From positions 1,032,501 to 1,096,500 of the forward strand of contig NZ_BQYI01000001.1 of assembly GCF_027923405.1 (NCBI RefSeq): 64,000 nucleotides of DNA. The letters run 5' to 3'. Below are positions 1-46,862 of this stretch, in pieces; within the stretch, counting starts at the first letter, position 1, and every line of letters begins with the position of its first letter. The notes below the pieces were generated by a model that was given only the letters and a program-made list of their open reading frames with translations, had not been told where the DNA came from and ran no database searches. This stretch comes from Paenibacillus sp. YYML68. Its GTDB lineage: Bacteria; Bacillota; Bacilli; Paenibacillales; NBRC-103111. A program made the position numbers and the translations under genes.

Positions 1-1650
<1,650 letters not shown>

Positions 1651-33525: not shown

Positions 33526-33587
33526 TTGGATGTCTGACCCTTCAGTCCCGAGCCCCTTATTCAAATAAAATGACAAGAGGTGAGAAC

Positions 33588-36500
33588 ATGAGGAGAAAAC
33601 GAAGCTGGATCAGTGTCGTATTAGCCATATTGGTAGTCGTATCACTGTTCCCAAGTATTGTAGCTCCTACGGCATCAGCTGCAGGAGAGCGTGTTAGCGT
33701 ATGGTTGACGACGGGAGACAAGAATAAACTGCTCAGTTCAGAAGCTGACTTAACGTTCGGCCCGGATCCTACACCACTAGAGTATACCATTAATATTGAT
33801 GAGAATGTAACGTACCAGCAAATGGACGGGTTCGGTGCTTCCATGACTGATTCATCGGCATGGGTACTATTTCATGCGTTAGATGAGTCCAAGAGAGTAG
33901 AAGTCATGAAGCAACTATTTGATCCAGTGGATGGAGCGGGATTTAGCTACATTCGCGTACCCTTGGGTGCAAGTGACTTTGCTCTTAGCCATTATACTTA
34001 TAATGATGTACCTGAAGGAGAAAGTGATCCGAATTTAGAACGATTCTCTATTGATCATGACAAAGCATACATTATTCCTCTTCTTAAACAAGCTCTTCAG
34101 TTCAATCCAAGTCTGAAATTTATGGGAACCCCATGGAGTGCTCCGGCTTGGATGAAAGAGAATCAATCCTTGTTTAAGGGCAAGCTGAAACCGGAGAATT
34201 ATGCTGTATATGCGCAATATTTTGTGAAAACGATTCAAGCTTATGAACAAGAAGGTATTACATTTGATGCGGTAACATTACAGAATGAGCCTCATTACGA
34301 ACCAAGTAACTATGCAGGGATGAGAATGGAGCCGGAAGATCAAGCTGCATTTGCTAAACATTTGGGACCTGCTTTCGAAGCAGCGAATATGGATACGAAA
34401 ATTATCATCTGGGATCATAACTGGAATGAATCAGGCTATCCAATTGAGGTCTTGAACGATGCAGAGGCGAAGCGATATATAGCAGGGTCAGCATTCCATG
34501 GTTATGCAGGCTCTGTGGAGAGCCAATCTTTCGTCCATGACCAACATCCTGATAAAGGTATTTACTTTACTGAGAGCTCAGGTGGAGCATTTGCTCCAAT
34601 CTTCGGGGACAATTTGATCTGGGACGTTCAAAATCTAATCATCGGAGCTACTAGACATTGGGCCAAAACATCGTTGAAGTGGAATCTGGCATTAGATCAA
34701 AATCATGGTCCATTTATAGGCGGGTGTGAGGACTGCAGAGGCGTAGTTACGGTGAATACAGACACAGAAGAAGTCACTTACAATGAAGAATATTACGCTT
34801 TTGCACATGCAAGCAAATTCGTGGTCCCAGGAGCGGTAAGGATTAAGTCTAATACTTATGGCGCTGGAAGCATTGAGGACGTAGCGTTCAAAAATCCCGA
34901 TGGCTCCAAAGTGTTAATCGTTTTAAACTCCTCCAAGGAATCCAAGCTGTTCAAGGTGCGCTGGGGTGGACAGAGCTTCAACTATGAACTTCCGGCTGGT
35001 GCTGTTGCTACATTCAAGTGGAACGGTATGTCTGAGGCAGCAGCAATGATCTCGCCATACAGCATCGTTGAAGCCGAAGATTATAGCGAAATGAATGGAA
35101 TCACTACTGATATAAGCACTGATACGGCAGGTGGCAAGTTCGTTGGCCAGACCAATGATGGTGATTATATCGCATTTGATAATGTTGAATTCGTAGATGG
35201 AACTGCCAGTCTCAAAGTTAGAGTTGCATCTGAGCAGGATGCCCGTATTGAGTTCAGGCTGAATCGTGCTGACGGCCCTGTGGTGGGTAGTGTAGATGTC
35301 GCGAATACAGGCGGTTGGCAGGCATGGAAGACCAGGACTGCCCCAGTTGAAGGAGCAAGTGGAACCCATAAGCTGTATCTGGTTTTTAAGGGAAGCGTTA
35401 ACCTAAATTGGTTTCAATTTAGTAAAGACTATTACCAGGATAGTCTGAATTATTTGTCTTATAATGGTGGTTTTGAGGAAGGAGCCTTGGATTCATGGAG
35501 TGGATGGAATCCAGAAGGGCAGGCGTCAGCCCATAAGATAGATGGTAGTGAGCCAAGAAGCGGCCATTATAAGCTTACTCATTGGGCAGCGGACGCTTAT
35601 CAACAATCAACGTACCGTACCGTGAAGGTACCTAATGGAACGTATAAAGCATCAGTATGGCTTCGCAAAGGTAACGGAATTCAAACTCGATTAGAAGTGG
35701 AAAATTATGGAGGCCCCGATTTAACCGCTGAGGCGAGTACTGAATTCATTGGATCCTGGGTGCAATTGAATATCGAAGATATTCGAGTGACGAACGGGCA
35801 AGTAGAGATTGGCGTGTATTCGAATTCTCCAGCAGGTGAATGGGCGACATTCGACGATTTCGGGTTAAGTCCGGTTACTACGAAGGCACCAGCTGTCACA
35901 ACGTCAGCCGAATCGCCTGCTAGTCCACAGAATCTTACGGCCAATATTGAGGGAGACAACAACATTCAATTGACATGGGATCCGGTAGTCAGTGCTGGCG
36001 GCTATAAGATTTACCGCTCTGTGAAAAATATCACAGAAGCTACAGTTGTAAACTCAGTGTATGTAGACTTAGCAGAATTAAGTATCACATCATCGGCTTC
36101 TACTAGTTATCGAGATTATGGGTTACAGGGTAATAAAACATATTATTATGTCATTACCGCTTATAATAGCAACGGAGAATCCAATGTCTCCAACTCCGTG
36201 TACGGAACAACCGGAACTGGAGTAGATGCAGTTGCTCCGGCTAAACCAGTAGGTCTGCGTGCTATGACAGGAAATGAGCAGATCCAATTGTACTGGGAGC
36301 ATAATCTAGAAAAAGATTTCTTGAAGTATAACATTTACATGAATGAAGCAAGAATTGCATCTGTAGATCCTGTCACTGAGACACAATATATTGTGAAGAA
36401 TCTGGTTCCCGGGATAGCCTATCAGTTTGCAGTGAGTGCTGTAGATAAGACGGGGAATGAATCCATTCTTAATGATTCTGTAACAGCGTCTCCAAATGCA

Positions 36501-39113
36501 TCTGGAGTTAAGGTACCCTTTGCCAATCTGGATTTTGAATCGAATTCGCTGGAAGGCTGGTCAGAATGGCATCCGGATGGCCAAGGCATTGCACACTTCG
36601 TTGATAATGACAATCCAAGAGGAGCCTACAAGCTCACCCACTGGGGACCGACAGATTACTTGCAATCCACCTATCGTACGTTAGAAGTTCCTAACGGAAT
36701 ATATAAAGTTCAGGTATGGGTGCGCACAGGTGGAGGGCAGAATGCCTTCAGATTAGAAGTGAAGAACTACGGCGGTGATCAGCTTACCAAGGACATGAGA
36801 AGTGCTGACGGAGGAACATGGACACCGTTCGCCATTGATAATGTACGAGTAACCAATGGTCAATTAGAGGTTGGTGTATTCTCTGATGCCAAGGCGGGCA
36901 ATTGGTCGGCAATTGATGACTTTGAAATTTATAGCTATGCTCCATCTGTACCTGCGGGTCTAAAAGGAATCGGAGGCCATCAAAGCGCAACCTTGCAGTG
37001 GACTGGAAATACTGAACATGACATTGCGTCGTATCATATTTATCAGAATGGCAATTTCCTTAACAAGGTTACAAGCCGTACTACAACCATATCAGGTCTT
37101 AATAATGGAGAATTATATCGTTATTCCATAAGTGCTCTAGACAGCGAAGGCAATGAATCTATGAAGAGTGCAGAGATTGAGATAGTTCCTAACCCACCTG
37201 TAGAAGGCGCGAATCTAGGCTTTGAACTCGGTGATACAACAGGCTGGGGCGGATGGAATCCTAATGGTAATGCGCATTATGTAGATCAAGACGGACCTAG
37301 GACAGGATCACACAAGCTTACGCATTGGGCAGCTAGTGATTATATGCAGACAACATATCAAACGATTAAGTTAGATAACGGGTCATATCAGGTTTCGACT
37401 TGGGTTAGAACAGGTGGGGGGCAAAATGCGCTCCGAATGGAATTGAAAAAATTCGGCAGTTCAGGGCAAACGGTCGATTTAAAAAGTGCATCTTCCACCG
37501 AGTGGACGCTGTTCCTAAGTGAACCGATTGAGGTCACAACAAACGAACTTGAGATCGGGCTTTTCTCAGACGGGAAATCCGGTAACTGGACAGGATTCGA
37601 TGATGTGCAAATTATGAAGCTACCGGGAAACGCTGCCCCAGTCTGGGATTCTGTAGAACCTCAAACGGTAGTAGTGGGTCATGAATTGACATTCACCGTG
37701 ACAGCTAACGACGTAGACGGTGATTCCATGACCTATACAGCACTGAACTTGCCGCAAGGTGCAAGCTTTGATTCGGTGAAGAAAGAGTTCAGATGGATAG
37801 CAGCAGTTCAAGGCGAGCATACTGTTATATTTATTGTAACCGACCAGCACGGACAAAGCTCTGAGCTAGAAGTGAAGATAACTGTGCAAGCGGGTCCGGT
37901 AGTAGACAGCGGTAACGGGAATGCCGACGGAGGTACAAGTGACGATGATGGAAGCGTCGTAGATGAAGTTGAACAACAGAATGGAGGGGACATAATCGTA
38001 TGGAATGAAAATTCGCTTCGCAGCCAGGCGGAGAAAGGCAAAGTCGTCGTTACTGTTGGCGGAGTAAGAGGCAAGAAGGAAGTCGTACTTCCAGTACAAG
38101 CTGCAGAGATCATTGGGCTGCGTCCAATAACAGTCCAATCTAATGATATTGCAGTTGAGATTCCAAGCTCAGTACTAAGCGGTCTTCAACAATCACTGAT
38201 TGAGAAGGAAGCGGAAGGTGCGACGATTCGATTCACACTTGAGCTTGTTGGAGTCGAGCAAGCGCAGCAGCTTCTCTCAAGAGCCGAAGGACAGAGCGGT
38301 GCGACACTTACAGCTGCAGGAAATATTTATAGCTTTGAACTGTTCGCAGTAACGGCTAGTGGCAAGATCCATGAGTTAACAGAGTTCGAAGAACCGATTG
38401 TACTGACGTTTCATGTTGATCCTAACACGAATCTTGATCTGCTGGGTGTGTATTACTTGGACGTGAATGGCGACGTGGAGTATGTTGGCGGCAAAATCGA
38501 GAATGGGAGAATGGTTGTCAAGATCCATCACTTCAGTAAGTATGCTGTGCTGGAATTCACTAAATCGTTCAACGATCTAAGTGATTCACACTGGGCTATA
38601 GATGCCATTCAAGTGCTTGCGGCTAAGCATATCGTTACCGGTAAAACAAGCAGCATGTTTGATCCGTCCGGCCGTGTGACACGTGCTGAGTTTGCGGCGA
38701 TGATCGTGAGATCGCTTGGCATAGACACTGAAGGCAACTCTACAAGCCGATTTAGCGATGTGGAAGCAAGCGCTTGGTATAACGCCTATGTTGTTGCAGC
38801 CTCAGATGCGGGCATCGTGATCGGTTCAAGCGCGTCTCATTTCGAACCTGAGGCTCTGATTACAAGGGAAGAAATAGCGATAATGCTCGTCAGAGCCTTG
38901 GAGCTGCATTCGGGACAACAGCTGAATACGGCAACGCCAGCATCATTTGAGGATCATACGGCAATCAGCAAATGGGCCGTATCTGCGGTGAATACGGCAG
39001 TTGAGCTGAAGCTTCTCCAAGGTGACGAAGTAGGCTTCCGACCCCAGGATACAGCAACACGCGCCGAAAGTGCACAAGTGGTCTACAACTTATTAGGGCG
39101 CATGAAACATTAA
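33588..39113 (+). CDS. Giant secreted SLH-anchored GH30 glycosidase with repeated carbohydrate-binding modules
   Basis: A 1841-aa surface enzyme. Order: signal peptide (1-30); GH30 catalytic domain and side beta-domain (about 40-480) with MDGFGASMTDSSAW, acid/base E234 (LQNEP) and nucleophile E329 (YFTESSGG); CBM6-like module (about 487-615, starting YSIVEAEDYSEMNG); a repeated jelly-roll-like module of about 140 aa at 621, 978 and 1207; fibronectin type III domains near 778, 883 and 1120; a cadherin-like Ig domain (about 1349-1435); a linker and beta region; and three SLH repeats (1661, 1722, 1785) that anchor it to the wall. Its GH30 subtype resembles beta-1,6-glucanase/glucosylceramidase-like enzymes rather than xylanases. 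RBS AAGAGGTGAGAAC precedes the ATG at 33588. Confidence 0.93.
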   Translation: MRRKRSWISVVLAILVVVSLFPSIVAPTASAAGERVSVWLTTGDKNKLLSSEADLTFGPDPTPLEYTINIDENVTYQQMDGFGASMTDSSAWVLFHALDESKRVEVMKQLFDPVDGAGFSYIRVPLGASDFALSHYTYNDVPEGESDPNLERFSIDHDKAYIIPLLKQALQFNPSLKFMGTPWSAPAWMKENQSLFKGKLKPENYAVYAQYFVKTIQAYEQEGITFDAVTLQNEPHYEPSNYAGMRMEPEDQAAFAKHLGPAFEAANMDTKIIIWDHNWNESGYPIEVLNDAEAKRYIAGSAFHGYAGSVESQSFVHDQHPDKGIYFTESSGGAFAPIFGDNLIWDVQNLIIGATRHWAKTSLKWNLALDQNHGPFIGGCEDCRGVVTVNTDTEEVTYNEEYYAFAHASKFVVPGAVRIKSNTYGAGSIEDVAFKNPDGSKVLIVLNSSKESKLFKVRWGGQSFNYELPAGAVATFKWNGMSEAAAMISPYSIVEAEDYSEMNGITTDISTDTAGGKFVGQTNDGDYIAFDNVEFVDGTASLKVRVASEQDARIEFRLNRADGPVVGSVDVANTGGWQAWKTRTAPVEGASGTHKLYLVFKGSVNLNWFQFSKDYYQDSLNYLSYNGGFEEGALDSWSGWNPEGQASAHKIDGSEPRSGHYKLTHWAADAYQQSTYRTVKVPNGTYKASVWLRKGNGIQTRLEVENYGGPDLTAEASTEFIGSWVQLNIEDIRVTNGQVEIGVYSNSPAGEWATFDDFGLSPVTTKAPAVTTSAESPASPQNLTANIEGDNNIQLTWDPVVSAGGYKIYRSVKNITEATVVNSVYVDLAELSITSSASTSYRDYGLQGNKTYYYVITAYNSNGESNVSNSVYGTTGTGVDAVAPAKPVGLRAMTGNEQIQLYWEHNLEKDFLKYNIYMNEARIASVDPVTETQYIVKNLVPGIAYQFAVSAVDKTGNESILNDSVTASPNASGVKVPFANLDFESNSLEGWSEWHPDGQGIAHFVDNDNPRGAYKLTHWGPTDYLQSTYRTLEVPNGIYKVQVWVRTGGGQNAFRLEVKNYGGDQLTKDMRSADGGTWTPFAIDNVRVTNGQLEVGVFSDAKAGNWSAIDDFEIYSYAPSVPAGLKGIGGHQSATLQWTGNTEHDIASYHIYQNGNFLNKVTSRTTTISGLNNGELYRYSISALDSEGNESMKSAEIEIVPNPPVEGANLGFELGDTTGWGGWNPNGNAHYVDQDGPRTGSHKLTHWAASDYMQTTYQTIKLDNGSYQVSTWVRTGGGQNALRMELKKFGSSGQTVDLKSASSTEWTLFLSEPIEVTTNELEIGLFSDGKSGNWTGFDDVQIMKLPGNAAPVWDSVEPQTVVVGHELTFTVTANDVDGDSMTYTALNLPQGASFDSVKKEFRWIAAVQGEHTVIFIVTDQHGQSSELEVKITVQAGPVVDSGNGNADGGTSDDDGSVVDEVEQQNGGDIIVWNENSLRSQAEKGKVVVTVGGVRGKKEVVLPVQAAEIIGLRPITVQSNDIAVEIPSSVLSGLQQSLIEKEAEGATIRFTLELVGVEQAQQLLSRAEGQSGATLTAAGNIYSFELFAVTASGKIHELTEFEEPIVLTFHVDPNTNLDLLGVYYLDVNGDVEYVGGKIENGRMVVKIHHFSKYAVLEFTKSFNDLSDSHWAIDAIQVLAAKHIVTGKTSSMFDPSGRVTRAEFAAMIVRSLGIDTEGNSTSRFSDVEASAWYNAYVVAASDAGIVIGSSASHFEPEALITREEIAIMLVRALELHSGQQLNTATPASFEDHTAISKWAVSAVNTAVELKLLQGDEVGFRPQDTATRAESAQVVYNLLGRMKH

Positions 39114-39176
39114 TGTCAATGGAAAGCTGATGGGTTTGAAGCCGACCGAGCAGATTCTTCAGGTTTTGCTCAGATC

Positions 39177-39198
39177 AAAGGAGGTGATACAGATGTAA
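39177..39198 (+). promoter_or_regulatory. Perfect Shine-Dalgarno followed by ATG-TAA (STAB-SD-like element)
   Basis: AAAGGAGGTGAT (39177-39188) is a full 12-base complement to the 3' end of 16S rRNA. ATG TAA (39193-39198) follows at ideal spacing: a start codon with an immediate stop, about 70 bp before the second GH30 gene. Such non-coding Shine-Dalgarno sites stabilise mRNA in Bacillus (the STAB-SD of cry3A). An alternative is a relic of a deleted gene. Confidence 0.5.
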
Positions 39199-39264
39199 CT
39201 GTAAATCTTCTCATGCAATGCTTGGTAATTGCCTTAGTTTATTAAAAAACGAAAGGATCGTGAA

Positions 39265-41187
39265 ATGATGACCAAAAGGAAACCGATTGTCGGCATTACT
39301 GCTTTAGCACTGGTGTTATCGATTGGGGGAGCATCGATTCCTGCTTCTACTCATGCAACTGGAGAATCTGTTCAGGTATGGCTTAGCAATCCAAATAACA
39401 ATACTTGGTTAGCTCGGCAAGCAGATGTAAGCTTCGCAAACACTAGCGCAAATGCAGATTACACGATCACGGTAAATAGCGGTACAACCTATCAAACGAT
39501 GGACGGTTTCGGAGCATCTCTGACAGACGCGTCAGCTTGGCTTCTGTTCAACCAACTTACAGCAGCTAAACGTATGGAAGTGATGAGCAACCTGTTCGGA
39601 CCGTCCGGCATTAACATTAGTGCTCTTCGACAGCCGATTGGGGCCAGTGACTTCAACTGGGAAGCTTGGACGTATAACGATACAACCAACAATGTGGATG
39701 ATATGAACTTATCCGGGTTCTCCTTGTGGAGAGAAGACGCTTATATCCGCCCGATGCTGGATCAAGCATACAATGTGAATAAAGGCCGTATCAAAATTTT
39801 CGCTGCGCCGTGGAGTCCTCCAGCTTGGATGAAAACAGTAAAAAACTTATATGGCAACAGTGGTGGAACCCTACGCACGGATGCCTACAACGCTTATGCT
39901 GATTATTTAGTGAAATACCTTCAGCAGTACAGCGCGAAAGGAACGCCGGTATACGCGATCTCCGTTCAGAACGAACCTAAGTTCGCTCCTAATTGGCCGG
40001 GTATGCTAATGTCGACAACGGAACAAATCAACTTTATCAATGTGCTTGGACCAAAGTTACAACAGAACAACTTGACCACCAAGATTATGGCTTATGACCA
40101 CAACTATGATGATATCAACTATCCTGCCACCGTCTTGGGATCTAGTGCTTCAACACATGTGAGCGGGAGTGCGTTCCACTATTATTCTGCTCTCACCCAT
40201 TCGAACCTAACAACGCTTCATAACCAGTATCCGAACAAAGATATTTGGTTCACAGAAGGCGGAAGCGGCACATGGATTGGTGGCGGTACGAATAAAGGAA
40301 TGTTCCAGGATCTGATGATGCATACGATCCGCTTCCCGAGAAACTGGGCGAAGTCCTATATTATGTGGAATATCGCCTTGGATCAGAATAGCGGTCCGGC
40401 CCTGCACGGAATTGACGCTACCAACCGCGGGCTGCTTACCATTCGCTCCGATACTACAGACAACGTGACCTATAACCCGCAGTACTATGGGCTTGGCCAT
40501 AGCAGTAAATTCGTAGATCCCGGCGCGTACCGTGTCAATTCGAATACATTCCAGGATAATATGGAAAGTGTCGCGTACCGCAATCCGGATGGCTCCATTG
40601 CGCTCATCCTATCTAATCGCTTAACAAGCGCGAAAACAGTCAAGATTCAGTGGGGCTCCCAGTCATTCACTTATCAGGTGCCGGCAGAAGGGGCAATTAC
40701 GTTCAAATGGGTAGCAGGGAACAGTGGTGGTGGCAGTCAATATCTTGAACCAGCAGTTGGGCAAACGTACCGCATCCTAGCCAAATCGAGCGATAAGGCA
40801 GTAGATGTAGCAGGCGTATCTACTGCAGACGGGGCTAACGTACACCAATGGGAGTATGTTGGCGGCAACAATCAGAAGTGGACTTTGAGAGATGCGGGAG
40901 GTGGATATTACAATATTGTAAACGTAAACAGCGATAAGGGGCTTGATGTAGCAAATGCATCCTCTGCAGATGGAGGGAACGTTCAGCAATGGACAGTGAT
41001 CGGAAGCGGGGGATACAATCAACAGTGGCAGATTATATCCGCTGGGAACGGCTACTATCGAATTGTGAATAGGAGCAGCGGAAAAGTGCTGGCCATCGCG
41101 GACAATTCTACAGCAAATGGCGGTAATGTGCACCAGTGGACCAATAATGGAGCGGACAATCAATTATTCTACTTCCAGGCTCCTTGA
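39265..41187 (+). CDS. Secreted GH30 glycosidase with ricin-type lectin domain
   Basis: A 640-aa exported enzyme. A signal peptide (1-31) precedes the GH30 barrel and beta-domain (about 40-485), with YQTMDGFGASLTDASAW, acid/base E237 (VQNEP) and nucleophile E331 (WFTEGGSG). After a Gly/Ser linker a ricin-B-type beta-trefoil (CBM13-like, about 497-640) shows three repeats ending Q-x-W (HQWEYVGGNNQKWTL, QQWTVIGSGGYNQQWQI, HQWTNNGADNQLFYF). It is the paralogue of the giant upstream enzyme but is free or lectin-bound rather than SLH-anchored. Start ATG 39265 follows AAAGGATCGTGAA; a second ATG follows directly. Confidence 0.94.
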   Translation: MMTKRKPIVGITALALVLSIGGASIPASTHATGESVQVWLSNPNNNTWLARQADVSFANTSANADYTITVNSGTTYQTMDGFGASLTDASAWLLFNQLTAAKRMEVMSNLFGPSGINISALRQPIGASDFNWEAWTYNDTTNNVDDMNLSGFSLWREDAYIRPMLDQAYNVNKGRIKIFAAPWSPPAWMKTVKNLYGNSGGTLRTDAYNAYADYLVKYLQQYSAKGTPVYAISVQNEPKFAPNWPGMLMSTTEQINFINVLGPKLQQNNLTTKIMAYDHNYDDINYPATVLGSSASTHVSGSAFHYYSALTHSNLTTLHNQYPNKDIWFTEGGSGTWIGGGTNKGMFQDLMMHTIRFPRNWAKSYIMWNIALDQNSGPALHGIDATNRGLLTIRSDTTDNVTYNPQYYGLGHSSKFVDPGAYRVNSNTFQDNMESVAYRNPDGSIALILSNRLTSAKTVKIQWGSQSFTYQVPAEGAITFKWVAGNSGGGSQYLEPAVGQTYRILAKSSDKAVDVAGVSTADGANVHQWEYVGGNNQKWTLRDAGGGYYNIVNVNSDKGLDVANASSADGGNVQQWTVIGSGGYNQQWQIISAGNGYYRIVNRSSGKVLAIADNSTANGGNVHQWTNNGADNQLFYFQAP

Positions 41188-42228: not shown

Positions 42229-45200
42229 ATGAGAACTATGCTTCTCAGAAAATGGTCCTGCATCGTCATGGCCATGGTCCTGGCTATGTCCGGATTGTTC
42301 GGGTATGCGCCTAGTACCACAGTCGCAGCAAGTGCAGATGGTACCTTGACCGTAGCAGAAGTAATTGCTGCGAACAACAACAACAGCGTCAGCACCGTAG
42401 AAGGCTTCATCGTTGGACATGCGACTGGCTCGATGTCAGCGAACTTCAAGCCAAGCTTCAGCAACGACTTCAACATCCTCATCGCCGACAAGAGCGGCGA
42501 GCAAGACAAGAGCAAGCTCGTCAACATTCAATTGTCGACAACAGCCGACCGCAACACGTTCGGATTGAAGACGAATCCGACCATTATCGGCAAGAAAGTG
42601 AAAGTAACAGGTACGTTAACCGCGTACAACTCGTTCCCGGGCGTCAAGTCGATCAAGTCGATCGCATTCGTGAGCGATACCCCGCCTCCTGAGCCTGGCA
42701 TCGTCTCGATCTCCAGCGCCAAGAGTGCAACAGGTACAGTCAAAATCGCCGGAATCGTAACTGCAGACAATGCTGCGATTGGCGGCGGCAAGCTGTCGAC
42801 GTTCGTCCAGGACGCGACAGGCGGCATTAACATCTTCAGTCAGTCCACAGCCGGCTTCCCCGACCTGAAGGAAGGCGATCAGGTTGAGGTGACAGGCTCC
42901 ATTACCTCCTACAAGGGCTTAACCGAAATTGTTCCTACCTCCATCATTGTACAAGCCAGCAACCAGACGCTCCCAGCTCCAATCAGCCTGACCGTAGCAG
43001 ACCTGCAAAGTGCAGCTACAGCAGAAGCCTATGAAGGCCAACTCGTTAAGCTTACCGCTTACTTCAAGACCGTTCCGGCCACACCAGCGGGCGGCGGTTA
43101 CAATATTCAAGCTGTAGACGCGCAATATGCGCCAACGACTGTACGCGTTGTAGACGGCTCGATCAACATGTCCGGCATTCAGCAGGACAAGTGGTACGAT
43201 GTCGTCGGTATTCTCGGACAATACGATTCGTATCAGGTCATTCCGCGTAAAAATGCGGATCTCGTCCTCTCGGCGAATCAACCGCCGCTCTATCCGACGA
43301 ATCCGACCGAGTATGAAGCTACGGTTGAGCGCATCGTAGACGGCGATACAATCGTCCTCACCAGCTCAGTGCTCGGTGCGACTAATGTTCGCTTCTTGAA
43401 CATCGATACACCGGAATCCGATGACTATATTCGTCTTAATGGCGGCGTTAAGACGCCTGCGGACCAGAATCATCTGGATTATGGTCTTGCTGCGAAGCAA
43501 TACATGGGCACACTGCTGCAACCAGGTGACCAGGTCGTGCTGAAGGTAGGCGCAGAGGCGATCGACAGCTACGGCCGCCTGCTTGCCCAAGTTGTACGTA
43601 AGTCGGATGGACTTAATGTCAACCTGGAAATGGTAAACAAGGGCCACGCCGTCACGTACTTCATTTGGCCGATTGGCACAGTTGAAGAGTACAATATGTA
43701 TCAAGCTGCCGTGAAGACGGCGAAGGATCAAGGTCTCGGTATCTGGTCCGCTACGAACCCGCTTCAAGAGCTTCCATTCGTCTTCCGCGCTCGCTTGTCC
43801 GGAGCTGGATTGACACGTCCTGTTGGACATTCCGATACGAAGGTGTATGTAGACAAGGAGCAATGGGCAACCGTTCCTGTAGAGAAGCGTATCTTCTTCA
43901 ACACGGAGCAAGACGCAATCTCGAACGGCTATGTCAAGTTCGGTCAAGTTCAACCGACACCGCTTCCGGACGGTACAGGTAAGAAGGTATTGTTCGACAA
44001 TACCCATGGACAGACAGCCGGTGCAGCGGACTGGGTCATTGACGGCGCGTTCTCCGACTTCGCGGACGGTCTGCGTGGAGCAGGCTTCACCGTAGAGTCG
44101 CTCGAGCGCACGATCCCTTACACGTTCGGTGAGCAAGCGATCACACTGGAGAAGCTTCAGGGCTACGATGTATTCGTCATCGCTGAGGCGAACATTCCAT
44201 TCAAGACGTCCGAGCAAGCCGCAATGGTTCAATATGTACAAGGCGGCGGCAGTATCTTCTTCATCTCCGACCACTACAATGCCGACCGTAACAAAAACCG
44301 TTGGGACAGCTCCGAGGCGATGAACGGCTACCGTCGCGGCGCGTGGACGAATCCGGCGAAAGGCATGTCGGCTGAGGAAGCAAGCTCCCCGGCGATGCAG
44401 GACGTTGTGAGCAGCGACTGGCTCGCTCAGAACTTCGGCGTACGCTTCCGCTTCAACTCGCTCGGCGATGTCGACCATATGACCGACGTCGTAGCTCCGA
44501 ACCAGACGTTCGGCATTACGCAGGATGTAGGCTCGCTCTCGATGCATGCGGGCTCCACGCTCGCGATTATTGACCCGGCGAAGGCCAAAGGTCTTGTCTA
44601 CCCACCGGCGCCTGTCTCCAAATGGGCGCATGCAGTAGACAGCGGTGTATACAACGGCGGCGGACGTGCAGAAGGTCCATATGCAGCCGTAGCGAAGCTC
44701 GGCGCAGGTAAGGCTGCCTTTATTGGCGATTCGTCCCCGGTTGAGGATGCGACGCCGAAATATTTGCGCGAAGAGAACGGCTCGAAGAAGACGACGTATA
44801 ACGGCTTCAAGGCTGAAGCTGACAATGATACGTTCCTGGTACAAACGGTAAGATGGCTGGCTCATCGCGAGAACTACTCCAGCTTGACTCAAGTTGCAGG
44901 TCTGCAGCTGGATCAGCCGACGCAGCTTCATGCGTACGAGCAGCCTGCTCAGACGACGGAGCCACAGCCAGAGCCATGGGCTGCACCAAGCGCAGGCTAC
45001 AAGTGGTACGACCCGTCAACGTTCAAGTCGGGCTCGTATGGCTCCTCCCAGCAGCCACCCGTGCAAGCGCAATATTCCTTCTTGCACCAGAGCACATTGC
45101 CGAACGCGGTTGAATTCCAGATTCGCGTGAAGGCGGACAAGCTTCTTCCAGGCCAGACAGTATCGGGTCTGTCTGCAGGCATTTATTTGCCAGGCGGCAC

Positions 45201-46614
45201 TCAAGTGGCCAAGATTCGTAACGAGGATGGAACGTGGCCTTCCAGCTACGGCTACAGCTCGAGCTTCTCGATTACAGCTGACGCACTAGGCCGCGGCTAT
45301 AAGGACCTTACGGTACAGATGAATCCGTCTGCCAGCGGTGCAGCAAGTCTGCGACTGAAGGCGAACGGCAATAACGAAGTGACGAATGCTGTCACGATCG
45401 GCAATGTTCCTGCAGAGCCGCTGCCGGCGGACAAGCCTCCAGTGCCGGAGAAGACGTCGATTGCGAACGTTCGTCTCCAGCCTGACGATGCGGTCGTAAC
45501 AGTAGAAGGCATCATTACGTCGGAGCCAGGTGCATTCGGCAGCCAGGCGTTCTACATGCAGGATGACACAGCCGGCATCTATGTGTACCAAGCGACAGCT
45601 GGCTTCCGCGCAGGGGATAAGATCAAGATCTCTGCGAAGAAGACGACGTATAACAATGAGCTGGAGCTGATCGATCCGATCGTAATCGAGAAGGTCGGAA
45701 CAGCACCGATTCCAGCAGCGATCGTACAGACTGAGCTGAATGAGAGCAACCAAGGCGAGCTCGTCAAGCTGGAGAAGGTTACGATTCAGAATTATATCAC
45801 TGCGACTCCGGCAGGCTCCTTCGAGTTCGACGTCATTAGCAGCACGGGTTCGACGCATGTTCGTGTCGATGCGCGTACAGGCATCAGCATGACCGAATTC
45901 CAGAGCAAGTATCCAGCTGGCGCGGTTGTGAATATTACAGGGATCTCGGCTATCTTCAAGACGACGTACCAGCTGAAGCCGCTCGCGATGTCAGCGGTAG
46001 AGCCAGCGACGATCATGTCCAAGGCTCCGTCAGCATCCAGCATCGCAGTCGTGAACCACAAGCTGCCGATGGTTGACGAGATCTCGGTATCGGATGTAAC
46101 GCCGGGCGATGTTATCAAGGTGTACGATGCACCTGCAGCAGGCTCCCTGCTCGGGTCAGCATCTGCAGACAGCAGCTCGACAACCGTGACGATGCACGTC
46201 TATCAGCTTGGTCAAGCGGCAGGCACGATCTATGTGACGGTGACAAGTAGCGGCATGGTCGAGAGCGAGCGTACAGCGAAGGCTTACGATGCTGAGCCTG
46301 CAGATCAGCTTGCACCTGTGACGAAGTATCGCATGGATCCAATCTTCGCGAAGTCGAAGTCCGGGGCGCAATATGTGTCTGGCTTCAACATCTCGCTCAA
46401 GGCTGAGGACAACGCAGGCGGGTCTGGTGTGAAGACGACACAGTACCGTATCAATGGCGGCGCGTGGAAGACGTATACAGGTCCATTCACCGCTACAGCT
46501 GGCACGACGCAGACCGTCGAATATTACAGTGAAGACAACGCAGGAAATGTGGAGAATCCAGTCAATAAGATGGACTTCATGAAGGGTACATTCACTGGCG
46601 CAGGTTCTTATTAA
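42229..46614 (+). CDS. Large secreted multidomain nuclease-like protein (DUF6359, OB folds, SNase)
   Basis: A 1461-aa exported protein. Signal peptide (1-32); DUF6359-like domain (about 36-140, TVAEVIAANNNNSVSTVEGFIVG); OB-fold of the YhcR type (about 150-245) and a second near 255-345; thermonuclease-like SNase domain (about 361-507: VERIVDGDTIVL, NIDTPESDDY, DSYGRLLAQV); a class I amidotransferase/DUF4350-like region (about 586-880, DVFVIAEANIPF); more OB folds (about 1075-1265); a C-terminal Ig-like/chitobiase-like domain ending in EYYSEDNAGN. Like B. subtilis YhcR it probably degrades extracellular nucleic acid. There is no SLH or LPXTG anchor. GGAGG lies 10 bases before the ATG. A 51-aa lasso-like peptide gene follows after 30 bp. 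Confidence 0.88.
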   Translation: MRTMLLRKWSCIVMAMVLAMSGLFGYAPSTTVAASADGTLTVAEVIAANNNNSVSTVEGFIVGHATGSMSANFKPSFSNDFNILIADKSGEQDKSKLVNIQLSTTADRNTFGLKTNPTIIGKKVKVTGTLTAYNSFPGVKSIKSIAFVSDTPPPEPGIVSISSAKSATGTVKIAGIVTADNAAIGGGKLSTFVQDATGGINIFSQSTAGFPDLKEGDQVEVTGSITSYKGLTEIVPTSIIVQASNQTLPAPISLTVADLQSAATAEAYEGQLVKLTAYFKTVPATPAGGGYNIQAVDAQYAPTTVRVVDGSINMSGIQQDKWYDVVGILGQYDSYQVIPRKNADLVLSANQPPLYPTNPTEYEATVERIVDGDTIVLTSSVLGATNVRFLNIDTPESDDYIRLNGGVKTPADQNHLDYGLAAKQYMGTLLQPGDQVVLKVGAEAIDSYGRLLAQVVRKSDGLNVNLEMVNKGHAVTYFIWPIGTVEEYNMYQAAVKTAKDQGLGIWSATNPLQELPFVFRARLSGAGLTRPVGHSDTKVYVDKEQWATVPVEKRIFFNTEQDAISNGYVKFGQVQPTPLPDGTGKKVLFDNTHGQTAGAADWVIDGAFSDFADGLRGAGFTVESLERTIPYTFGEQAITLEKLQGYDVFVIAEANIPFKTSEQAAMVQYVQGGGSIFFISDHYNADRNKNRWDSSEAMNGYRRGAWTNPAKGMSAEEASSPAMQDVVSSDWLAQNFGVRFRFNSLGDVDHMTDVVAPNQTFGITQDVGSLSMHAGSTLAIIDPAKAKGLVYPPAPVSKWAHAVDSGVYNGGGRAEGPYAAVAKLGAGKAAFIGDSSPVEDATPKYLREENGSKKTTYNGFKAEADNDTFLVQTVRWLAHRENYSSLTQVAGLQLDQPTQLHAYEQPAQTTEPQPEPWAAPSAGYKWYDPSTFKSGSYGSSQQPPVQAQYSFLHQSTLPNAVEFQIRVKADKLLPGQTVSGLSAGIYLPGGTQVAKIRNEDGTWPSSYGYSSSFSITADALGRGYKDLTVQMNPSASGAASLRLKANGNNEVTNAVTIGNVPAEPLPADKPPVPEKTSIANVRLQPDDAVVTVEGIITSEPGAFGSQAFYMQDDTAGIYVYQATAGFRAGDKIKISAKKTTYNNELELIDPIVIEKVGTAPIPAAIVQTELNESNQGELVKLEKVTIQNYITATPAGSFEFDVISSTGSTHVRVDARTGISMTEFQSKYPAGAVVNITGISAIFKTTYQLKPLAMSAVEPATIMSKAPSASSIAVVNHKLPMVDEISVSDVTPGDVIKVYDAPAAGSLLGSASADSSSTTVTMHVYQLGQAAGTIYVTVTSSGMVESERTAKAYDAEPADQLAPVTKYRMDPIFAKSKSGAQYVSGFNISLKAEDNAGGSGVKTTQYRINGGAWKTYTGPFTATAGTTQTVEYYSEDNAGNVENPVNKMDFMKGTFTGAGSY

Positions 46615-46644
46615 TACGAACTAACGATAAAGGAGTCGATTACG

Positions 46645-46800
46645 ATGAACAAGCAACAGCCAATCAGAGCCGTCGAGCAGACGAAGAAAGCATGGGTACA
46701 GCCTGAAATTAGTGAGCTGGGCGTAGAGTATACCGAATACTGGAGCTTCCAGTATGACAGCACAACAGGCTTCTGGAAGACGGTTTGGATCGATAGCTAG
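46645..46800 (+). CDS. Small peptide with a lasso-peptide-like leader (putative RiPP precursor)
   Basis: A 51-aa peptide too short for routine gene calling. AAGGAG lies nine bases before the ATG. Residues 17-30 read WVQPEISELGVEYT, which fits the lasso leader pattern Y/W-xx-P-x-L/I-xxx-G-...-T that is recognised by RRE (PqqD-like) proteins; the leader threonine T30 would be the -2 residue. The remaining segment is aromatic-rich (YWSFQYDSTTGFWKTVW) with an Asp at position 7 of the putative core, the usual ring-closing place. Against it: the first core residue would be Tyr, not Gly, and no B, C or D maturation genes are present in the window. It is likely co-transcribed with the large nuclease-like gene. 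Confidence 0.72.
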   Translation: MNKQQPIRAVEQTKKAWVQPEISELGVEYTEYWSFQYDSTTGFWKTVWIDS

Positions 46801-46824: not shown

Positions 46825-46862
46825 AAGCAGGCTCTCCTTTCCATAAGGGGAGCCTGCTTACT
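46825..46862. terminator. Hairpin between the small peptide gene and the convergent cyclase
   Basis: AAGCAGGCTCTCC and GGGGAGCCTGCTT form a stem with one interior mismatch around a TTTCCATAA loop. It lies between convergent genes. T runs are short on both sides, so it is a moderate bidirectional terminator. Confidence 0.65.

Follow-up and report, generated by a model that had tools for sequence, protein, structure and literature searches.

A conserved 51-residue RiPP-precursor-like peptide with a paeninodin-type leader is encoded beside a secreted multidomain protein in Paenibacillus sp. YYML68

The window, i.e. the whole 64 kb stretch of DNA that was analysed, belongs to a single 5.09 Mb contig of Paenibacillus sp. 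YYML68 and carries on its forward strand a RiPP-precursor-like ORF of 51 aa (46645..46800, ATG start, stop codon included), the product of which is MNKQQPIRAVEQTKKAWVQPEISELGVEYTEYWSFQYDSTTGFWKTVWIDS. As proposed in an initial annotation of this DNA, the ORF is served by a good ribosome-binding site (AAGGAG, 46630..46635, + strand), located 9 nt 5' of the ATG, and lies behind a giant gene for a secreted, nuclease-like protein, with 30 nt between the stop codon of the latter and the start of the ORF. This upstream gene (42229..46614, + strand) encodes a 1461-aa protein with a signal-peptide-like start, DUF6359, SNase and DUF5689 domains, a C-terminal OmpL47-type domain and a tail; the SNase region (residues 353-510) was also matched by the PADLOC candidate model SNc+LTD at 39 bits. 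On the 3' side of the peptide gene, RNA folding predicted a stem-loop (46825..46859, + strand; −27.2 kcal/mol, z −5.3, equalled by 0 of 200 shuffles), which possibly represents the end of the transcript. The hairpin terminator that had been suggested at this position corresponds to a strong stem-loop, while its T-run is poor and it is absent from the output of a consensus terminator scan. Elsewhere in the window (33570-41187), two neighbouring GH30 glycosidases are encoded, one of 1847 aa with CBM6, fn3 and SLH domains, whereas its neighbour contains a lectin domain of the ricin type.

The 51-aa gene is a real, conserved coding sequence. An alignment of the window peptide with its six closest relatives, the latter derived from four other genus codes, revealed nine residues that are invariant in 7/7 sequences (W17, P20, T30, Y32, W33, F35, F43, V47 and W48), and dN was lower than dS in the eight informative pairs among nine compared pairs of relatives, the ninth pair being identical. 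Short ORFs matching the peptide from residues 8-11 to 48-50 were present in 6 of the 103 other genomes of the family; a seventh match (G041) sits in a 2050-codon frame and was judged to be due to chance. The 24 other genomes of the window's genus yielded no convincing relative, two weak matches there also being judged chance. The weak matches discarded in this way lie in L003, L004 and L012, inside long frames of 602, 597 and 2050 codons, respectively. The single peptide yielded no match when used as a query against the genome contigs and plasmids collections or in a PHROGs search, and a Pfam Apo-CIII assignment was rejected (13.6 bits against a cut-off of 34.1). Profiles built from the seven sequences, and then from 15 broader relatives, were run on 392 genomes of the order, where they matched at least 100 genomes at E 0.01 and at least 61 at E 1e-5. 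Many of the weaker matches span the leader only, and several of those inspected represent ordinary lasso precursors. In one genome (G222), the peptide frame is broken by a stop codon towards its N-terminal end.

The leader is taken to comprise residues 1-31 (46645..46737, + strand), with cleavage after E31 predicted from paeninodin numbering (PMC13381572); W17, P20, I22 and T30 would then occupy positions −15, −12, −10 and −2. The lasso-type leader pattern recognized in the initial annotation was retrieved as far as W17, P20 and T30 are concerned, while its Gly residue proved not to be conserved. The distance from W to T was exactly 13 residues in all 33 distinct WxxP-class peptides, window included, collected by a pattern that required W, P and a T 12-16 residues after W; 32 of these peptides were retrieved by this pattern and one, from genome G147, was missed by it. 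Ser is the terminal residue in all 33. W-15 of the precursor PbaA is described to bind the RRE (PMC13381572) and the C-terminal Ser to be the phosphorylation target of PadeK (PMC13381572, PMC9266682). Since the fixed W-T spacing and the terminal Ser are marks of paeninodin-type precursors, the leader of the window peptide was read as paeninodin-type. When 14 aligned members were compared with the NCBIfam paeninodin model NF033524, 13 gave a match at E≤1, the best having an E-value of 2.2e-9; the window peptide itself gave none. For 13 WxxP genomes, comparison of the leader with that of the lasso cluster in the same genome gave 97 identities versus 92.4 in shuffled pairings (p 0.12); judged by these identities, the leader is not tuned to the cluster of its own genome within the WxxP class.

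As the initial annotation had stated, no B, C or D gene was seen among the ORFs listed for the window, and a whole-genome search for B2 returned matches only outside it. Lasso-type enzymes, a search for which had been advised, are indeed encoded elsewhere in the genome, at about 205-215 kb from the peptide gene on the same contig. They include B1, a paeninodin-type RRE (G000:C1:874341-874637; 89 bits, cut-off 80), a B2 protease (PF13471; G000:C1 868155-868676; 97 bits, cut-off 33), a cyclase relative that scores below the cut-off of its model NF033535, and two HprK-like genes with matches far below model cut-offs. The locus (G000:C1, 864-875 kb) encompasses an HprK-like gene, an LppB-like RRE, a transporter, an IVFETA precursor, B2, the cyclase relative and the second HprK-like gene, with the paeninodin-type RRE and two WxxP precursors on the opposite strand. 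These two precursors, which contain the segments AKTEYGSSITPNID and LDTAHGHPISKHVD, are arranged in tandem beside the RRE (G000:C1:874700-875100; L020 ~1221-1640, minus strand). With T-2 as reference, their cores have an acid at position 10, which becomes position 9 if Gly is taken as the first core residue. B1 matched PDB 9x90 at 67 bits and, as counted by eye, keeps the position of Gly42 of PbaB1, a residue reported to mark WxxP-reading RREs (PMC13381572). The LppB-like RRE matched 9x8z at 66 bits, with the positions of Asn33 and Asp70 of LppB also kept by eye. Molecule names and residue numbering indicate that 9x90 probably corresponds to PbaB1 and 9x8z to LppB, the codes themselves being absent from the available text of PMC13381572.

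B2 was identified in 43 of 44 WxxP-class genomes versus at least 188 of 348 others (p 5e-10), so that lasso enzymes do occur in genomes that carry the peptide, as the initial annotation would predict; the B2 calls for this wider order sample agree with those of a fully scored 80-genome set where compared. The single WxxP-class genome in which B2 was not found (G132) is 81% complete. Within the window's family, the corresponding numbers are 7/7 versus 38/97 (p 0.002, assuming that all 104 family genomes are in the order sample), and in the window's genus B2 was detected in 2 of 24 genomes searched (24 of 25, G007 being left out), the window's genome being one of them. The association partly reflects lineage, because all 32 g35 genomes searched have B2, with or without the peptide module. 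In 12 WxxP genomes the lasso locus was inspected, and each locus was shown to hold B2 and a precursor that has a leader of this type and Ser as its last residue. The cyclase was an unbroken ORF in 11 of these loci and interrupted in one, and an RRE was recognized in 10 by motif and in an eleventh (G047) by a weak profile match. Two WxxP genomes tested later both harbour B2 and a paeninodin-type locus. The window peptide thus shares with the paeninodin family (PadeA, NF033524; PbaA and PbaB1 of PMC13381572; the RRE of PDB 9x90) the WxxPxL leader, W-15, T-2 and C-terminal Ser, and its genome contains the RRE and B2 of that class together with HprK-like genes. Unlike paeninodin genes, its gene lies far from the enzymes rather than being clustered with B1, B2 and cyclase, and its family is distinguished by the lack of a conserved ring acid, a conserved aromatic core and a paired secreted partner. 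No description of remote precursors of this kind was found in searches of the open-licence PMC literature. Among the explanations originally offered, that of an orphan precursor processed in trans agrees best with the presence of remote enzymes, with the processing itself being putative.

The predicted core of 20 aa, YWSFQYDSTTGFWKTVWIDS (46738..46797, + strand), is aromatic, as noted initially for the segment after T30 (Y32, W33, F35, F43 and W48 are among the invariant residues), and ends in Ser. Turn motifs such as YNPETGFW or YDSTTGFW occur in the cores, and the turn appears to resemble that of chignolin. Among 32 distinct WxxP peptides, four have Cys in place of both Trp33 and Trp48, and none has it in place of one alone (p 3e-5, a value that ignores kinship and is based on few independent events); a Cys pair is also present in seven of the eight peptides of a second leader class (YxxP, described below). 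The joint replacement suggests a cross-strand pair able to form a disulfide, and thereby a hairpin located outside the cytoplasm, although this fold is predicted from sequence. The Tyr noted before as the first core residue is invariant in the close set (7/7) and varies across the wider family.

Such a core bears directly on whether the product is a true orphan lasso peptide, from which the leader would be removed and in which a remote cyclase would form a macrolactam at Asp7. Asp7, to which the initial annotation had drawn attention, is present in the window core, and an acid at positions 7-9 is found in all nine distinct cores starting with YW or YC and in the single core starting with FC; the paeninodin-type leader and the cyclase relative (354 bits to NF033535, cut-off 525) also favour this reading. 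Across the class, however, Asp or Glu occurs at positions 7-9 in only 11 of 33 distinct cores and at positions 7-10 in 12, against 9 and 14, respectively, of 14 cluster precursors inspected. The acid-bearing group has Tyr or Phe as its first residue, and a similar core is found on an LPP leader in genomes without B2, LPPs being described as linear in PMC13381572. As the ring acid and the leader Gly are not conserved, a lasso product, as initially envisaged, is decidedly unlikely, and the peptide was not filed as a lasso peptide.

The C-terminal OmpL47-type domain and tail of the secreted partner (46294..46611, + strand) comprise 106 residues, of which 27-89 matched NF047446 with 64.3 bits, and the last 14 residues, MDFMKGTFTGAGSY (46570-46611, + strand), form a tail of conserved residues (consensus MDFxxGxFxGAGx[FY]) that lies beyond the domain match. 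The partner resembles the OmpL47-type beta-barrel domain proteins in this C-terminal domain and differs from them in carrying, after the domain, a conserved tail that lies outside the model and is paired with a peptide gene. The upstream parts of the partners are diverse and include SNase, PKD with F5/8 and laminin-G, RCC1 repeats and carboxypeptidase-regulatory repeats. An SLH domain was found by Pfam scan in 0 of 15 distinct partners, in contrast to a GH30 enzyme in the window, which has three SLH stretches, and an LPxTG-like motif in the last 120 residues was found in 0 of 20 partners. In a pattern-based scan of the genomes of 84,980 species, tail-reaching matches were obtained at no fewer than 29 loci, all from Paenibacillus or Cohnella.

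With a profile built from the 54 C-terminal residues of the partners (threshold E 1e-15), at least 50 places were detected in at least 46 of the 392 order genomes, and in 49 of the 50 places found a peptide adjoins the tail (42 WxxP and 7 YxxP). For 43 tails a profile-found peptide was located on the same strand, either after the tail (n=13; 24-80 nt between matches) or before the partner gene (n=30; 725-1139 nt between matches, with the partner ORF intervening); six of the remaining seven tails have a peptide with a different leader directly after them, which together with the 43 gives the 49 paired tails. Both gene orders were thus observed, always on the same strand, while the chance of a peptide lying near a tail is roughly 6e-5 per tail (mean genome taken as 6.7 Mb). 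The single tail without a neighbouring peptide (G290) is itself changed (GLEMY). Conversely, three further genomes (G120, G132 and G172) have a WxxP peptide and no tail at E 1e-15. In the first two, the neighbour of the peptide is a more distant tail protein, and in G172 (L132 8829-9038), which belongs to a genus where the pair is usual, no tail-protein gene was seen near the WxxP hairpin peptide, possibly reflecting recent loss of the partner. At 6 of the 50 places (G042, G047, G390, G219 and, twice, G017), the tail lies in a frame of only 121-310 codons, indicative of an interrupted partner gene or assembly errors, and the peptide gene is present. It is from this gene pairing that we infer a partnership between peptide and tail. 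The same pairing could also be expected if the peptide were a small protein outside the RiPP class whose likeness to a RiPP leader is superficial, such as a chaperone of the partner or a factor in its assembly, and the core is conserved across genera, in contrast to most RiPP cores, which are not.

The second leader class is informative in this respect. Eight distinct peptides combine a YxxP..FET|xxS leader with a similar core (e.g. HWEFxxxPSGFWQRVCVKD) and end in Asp or Glu, not Ser. The pattern used for YxxP peptides asked for Ser3, and a looser pattern did not, yet its seven distinct hairpin peptides all have Ser3, as does the eighth (L175). According to PMC13381572, the LPP leader is cut after FET and phosphorylation takes place on core Ser3 by LppK. 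The likely phosphoacceptor thus follows the leader, being the C-terminal Ser in the WxxP class and Ser3 in the FET class, in parallel with PadeK and LppK. The YxxPxVLxHQxIxFETxxS leader of LPP is not found in the window peptide, which has WxxP. An LppB-like RRE was detected in all four sampled YxxP genomes (E 3e-28 or better) and, at E below 1e-20, in 4/4 of these versus 18/75 other family genomes (p 0.005; sample of 79 family genomes, most of genus g17 left out), while B2 was found in none of the four; these genomes are few and related. All four LPP-type loci hold a precursor with the same leader. The genome of L175, tested later, has an LppB-like RRE (7e-18), an HprK-like gene recognized by position and length, and B2 in addition; neither a precursor nor a signal peptidase was seen beside this RRE. 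The YxxP peptides share the LPP leader and occur with an LppB-like RRE, the kind matched by PDB 9x8z, in the four sampled genomes and the later one. They differ from LPP precursors, described in PMC13381572 as residing in the cluster and having highly variable C termini, in being remote, in their fixed core pattern and in their paired secreted protein.

A tree of 25 tails (without L175 and L167 (=L128), the g35 tails being represented by three rows) needs two leader changes, and a single change suffices in 0% of 200 bootstrap trees; the strongly supported branches taken alone do not force two changes. In Cohnella faecalis (L228, G394:C23:105000-122000), an LppB-like RRE lies in a sugar-nucleotide locus with no precursor seen nearby, and its substrate may be the YxxP hairpin peptide encoded at a distance. 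At L140 and L143, FETAQSWN LPP-type precursors with long Gly/Asn/Pro-rich cores adjoin paeninodin clusters, in line with the LPP study of 2026.

For a plain protein, the leader spacing kept in 33/33 peptides and a leader class and phosphoacceptor Ser that change with the machinery are unexpected, and the Cys-for-Trp33/Trp48 pair (4/32) fits an extracytoplasmic disulfide, yet there is no evident signal peptide; a non-RiPP protein is therefore unlikely. A role as decoy or regulator, in which the peptide is co-transcribed with the secreted protein and titrates either the RRE or the kinase of the paeninodin/LPP pathway, would agree with the conserved leader spacing and motif and with the lack of dedicated enzymes seen nearby. 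Such a decoy would have no need for a conserved aromatic core, a coupled Trp/Cys pair or a paired tail domain, and is highly improbable.

The explanation that we consider probable is that the peptide is processed in trans to a non-lasso hairpin RiPP with a phosphorylated Ser, which partners the tail of the secreted protein. The C-terminal Ser (the phosphorylation site of paeninodins), the tail pairing and the second leader class, on which this proposal draws, were absent from the initial annotation. The gene would encode a RiPP precursor for which the maturation enzymes are encoded elsewhere in the genome. Its WxxPxI leader would be bound by the paeninodin-type RRE B1, Ser51 at the C-terminus would probably be phosphorylated by an HprK-like kinase, and the B2 protease would cut after E31, so that up to leader removal the peptide should work like a paeninodin precursor. 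The remaining aromatic hairpin of 20 aa would be exported rather than threaded into a lasso, and would act together with the secreted product of the upstream gene, the likeliest mode being attachment to its MDFxxGxFxGAGxY tail. Taken together, the data suggest that the peptide and the secreted protein with the matching tail constitute a new two-part surface or secretion system.

A more far-reaching proposal, which is tentative and on balance doubtful, holds that the exported hairpin RiPP serves as a sortase-independent surface adaptor that clasps the tail, with a phosphorylated and perhaps glycosylated Ser tying the complex to capsule or exopolysaccharide. The locus in which the RiPP enzymes are encoded would also produce this polymer, and the leader would be a plug-in part, swapped to suit the RRE of the host. 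PMC13381572 describes the roles of paeninodins and LPPs as unknown and notes that they are often located in capsule loci. The finding that peptides with paeninodin or LPP leaders are tied gene-for-gene to secreted multidomain proteins provides a testable handle on the purpose of these pathways. The data further suggest that two RRE systems have exchanged leader modules, with the core and the partner remaining fixed, and that RiPP mining confined to the neighbourhoods of the enzymes misses substrates.
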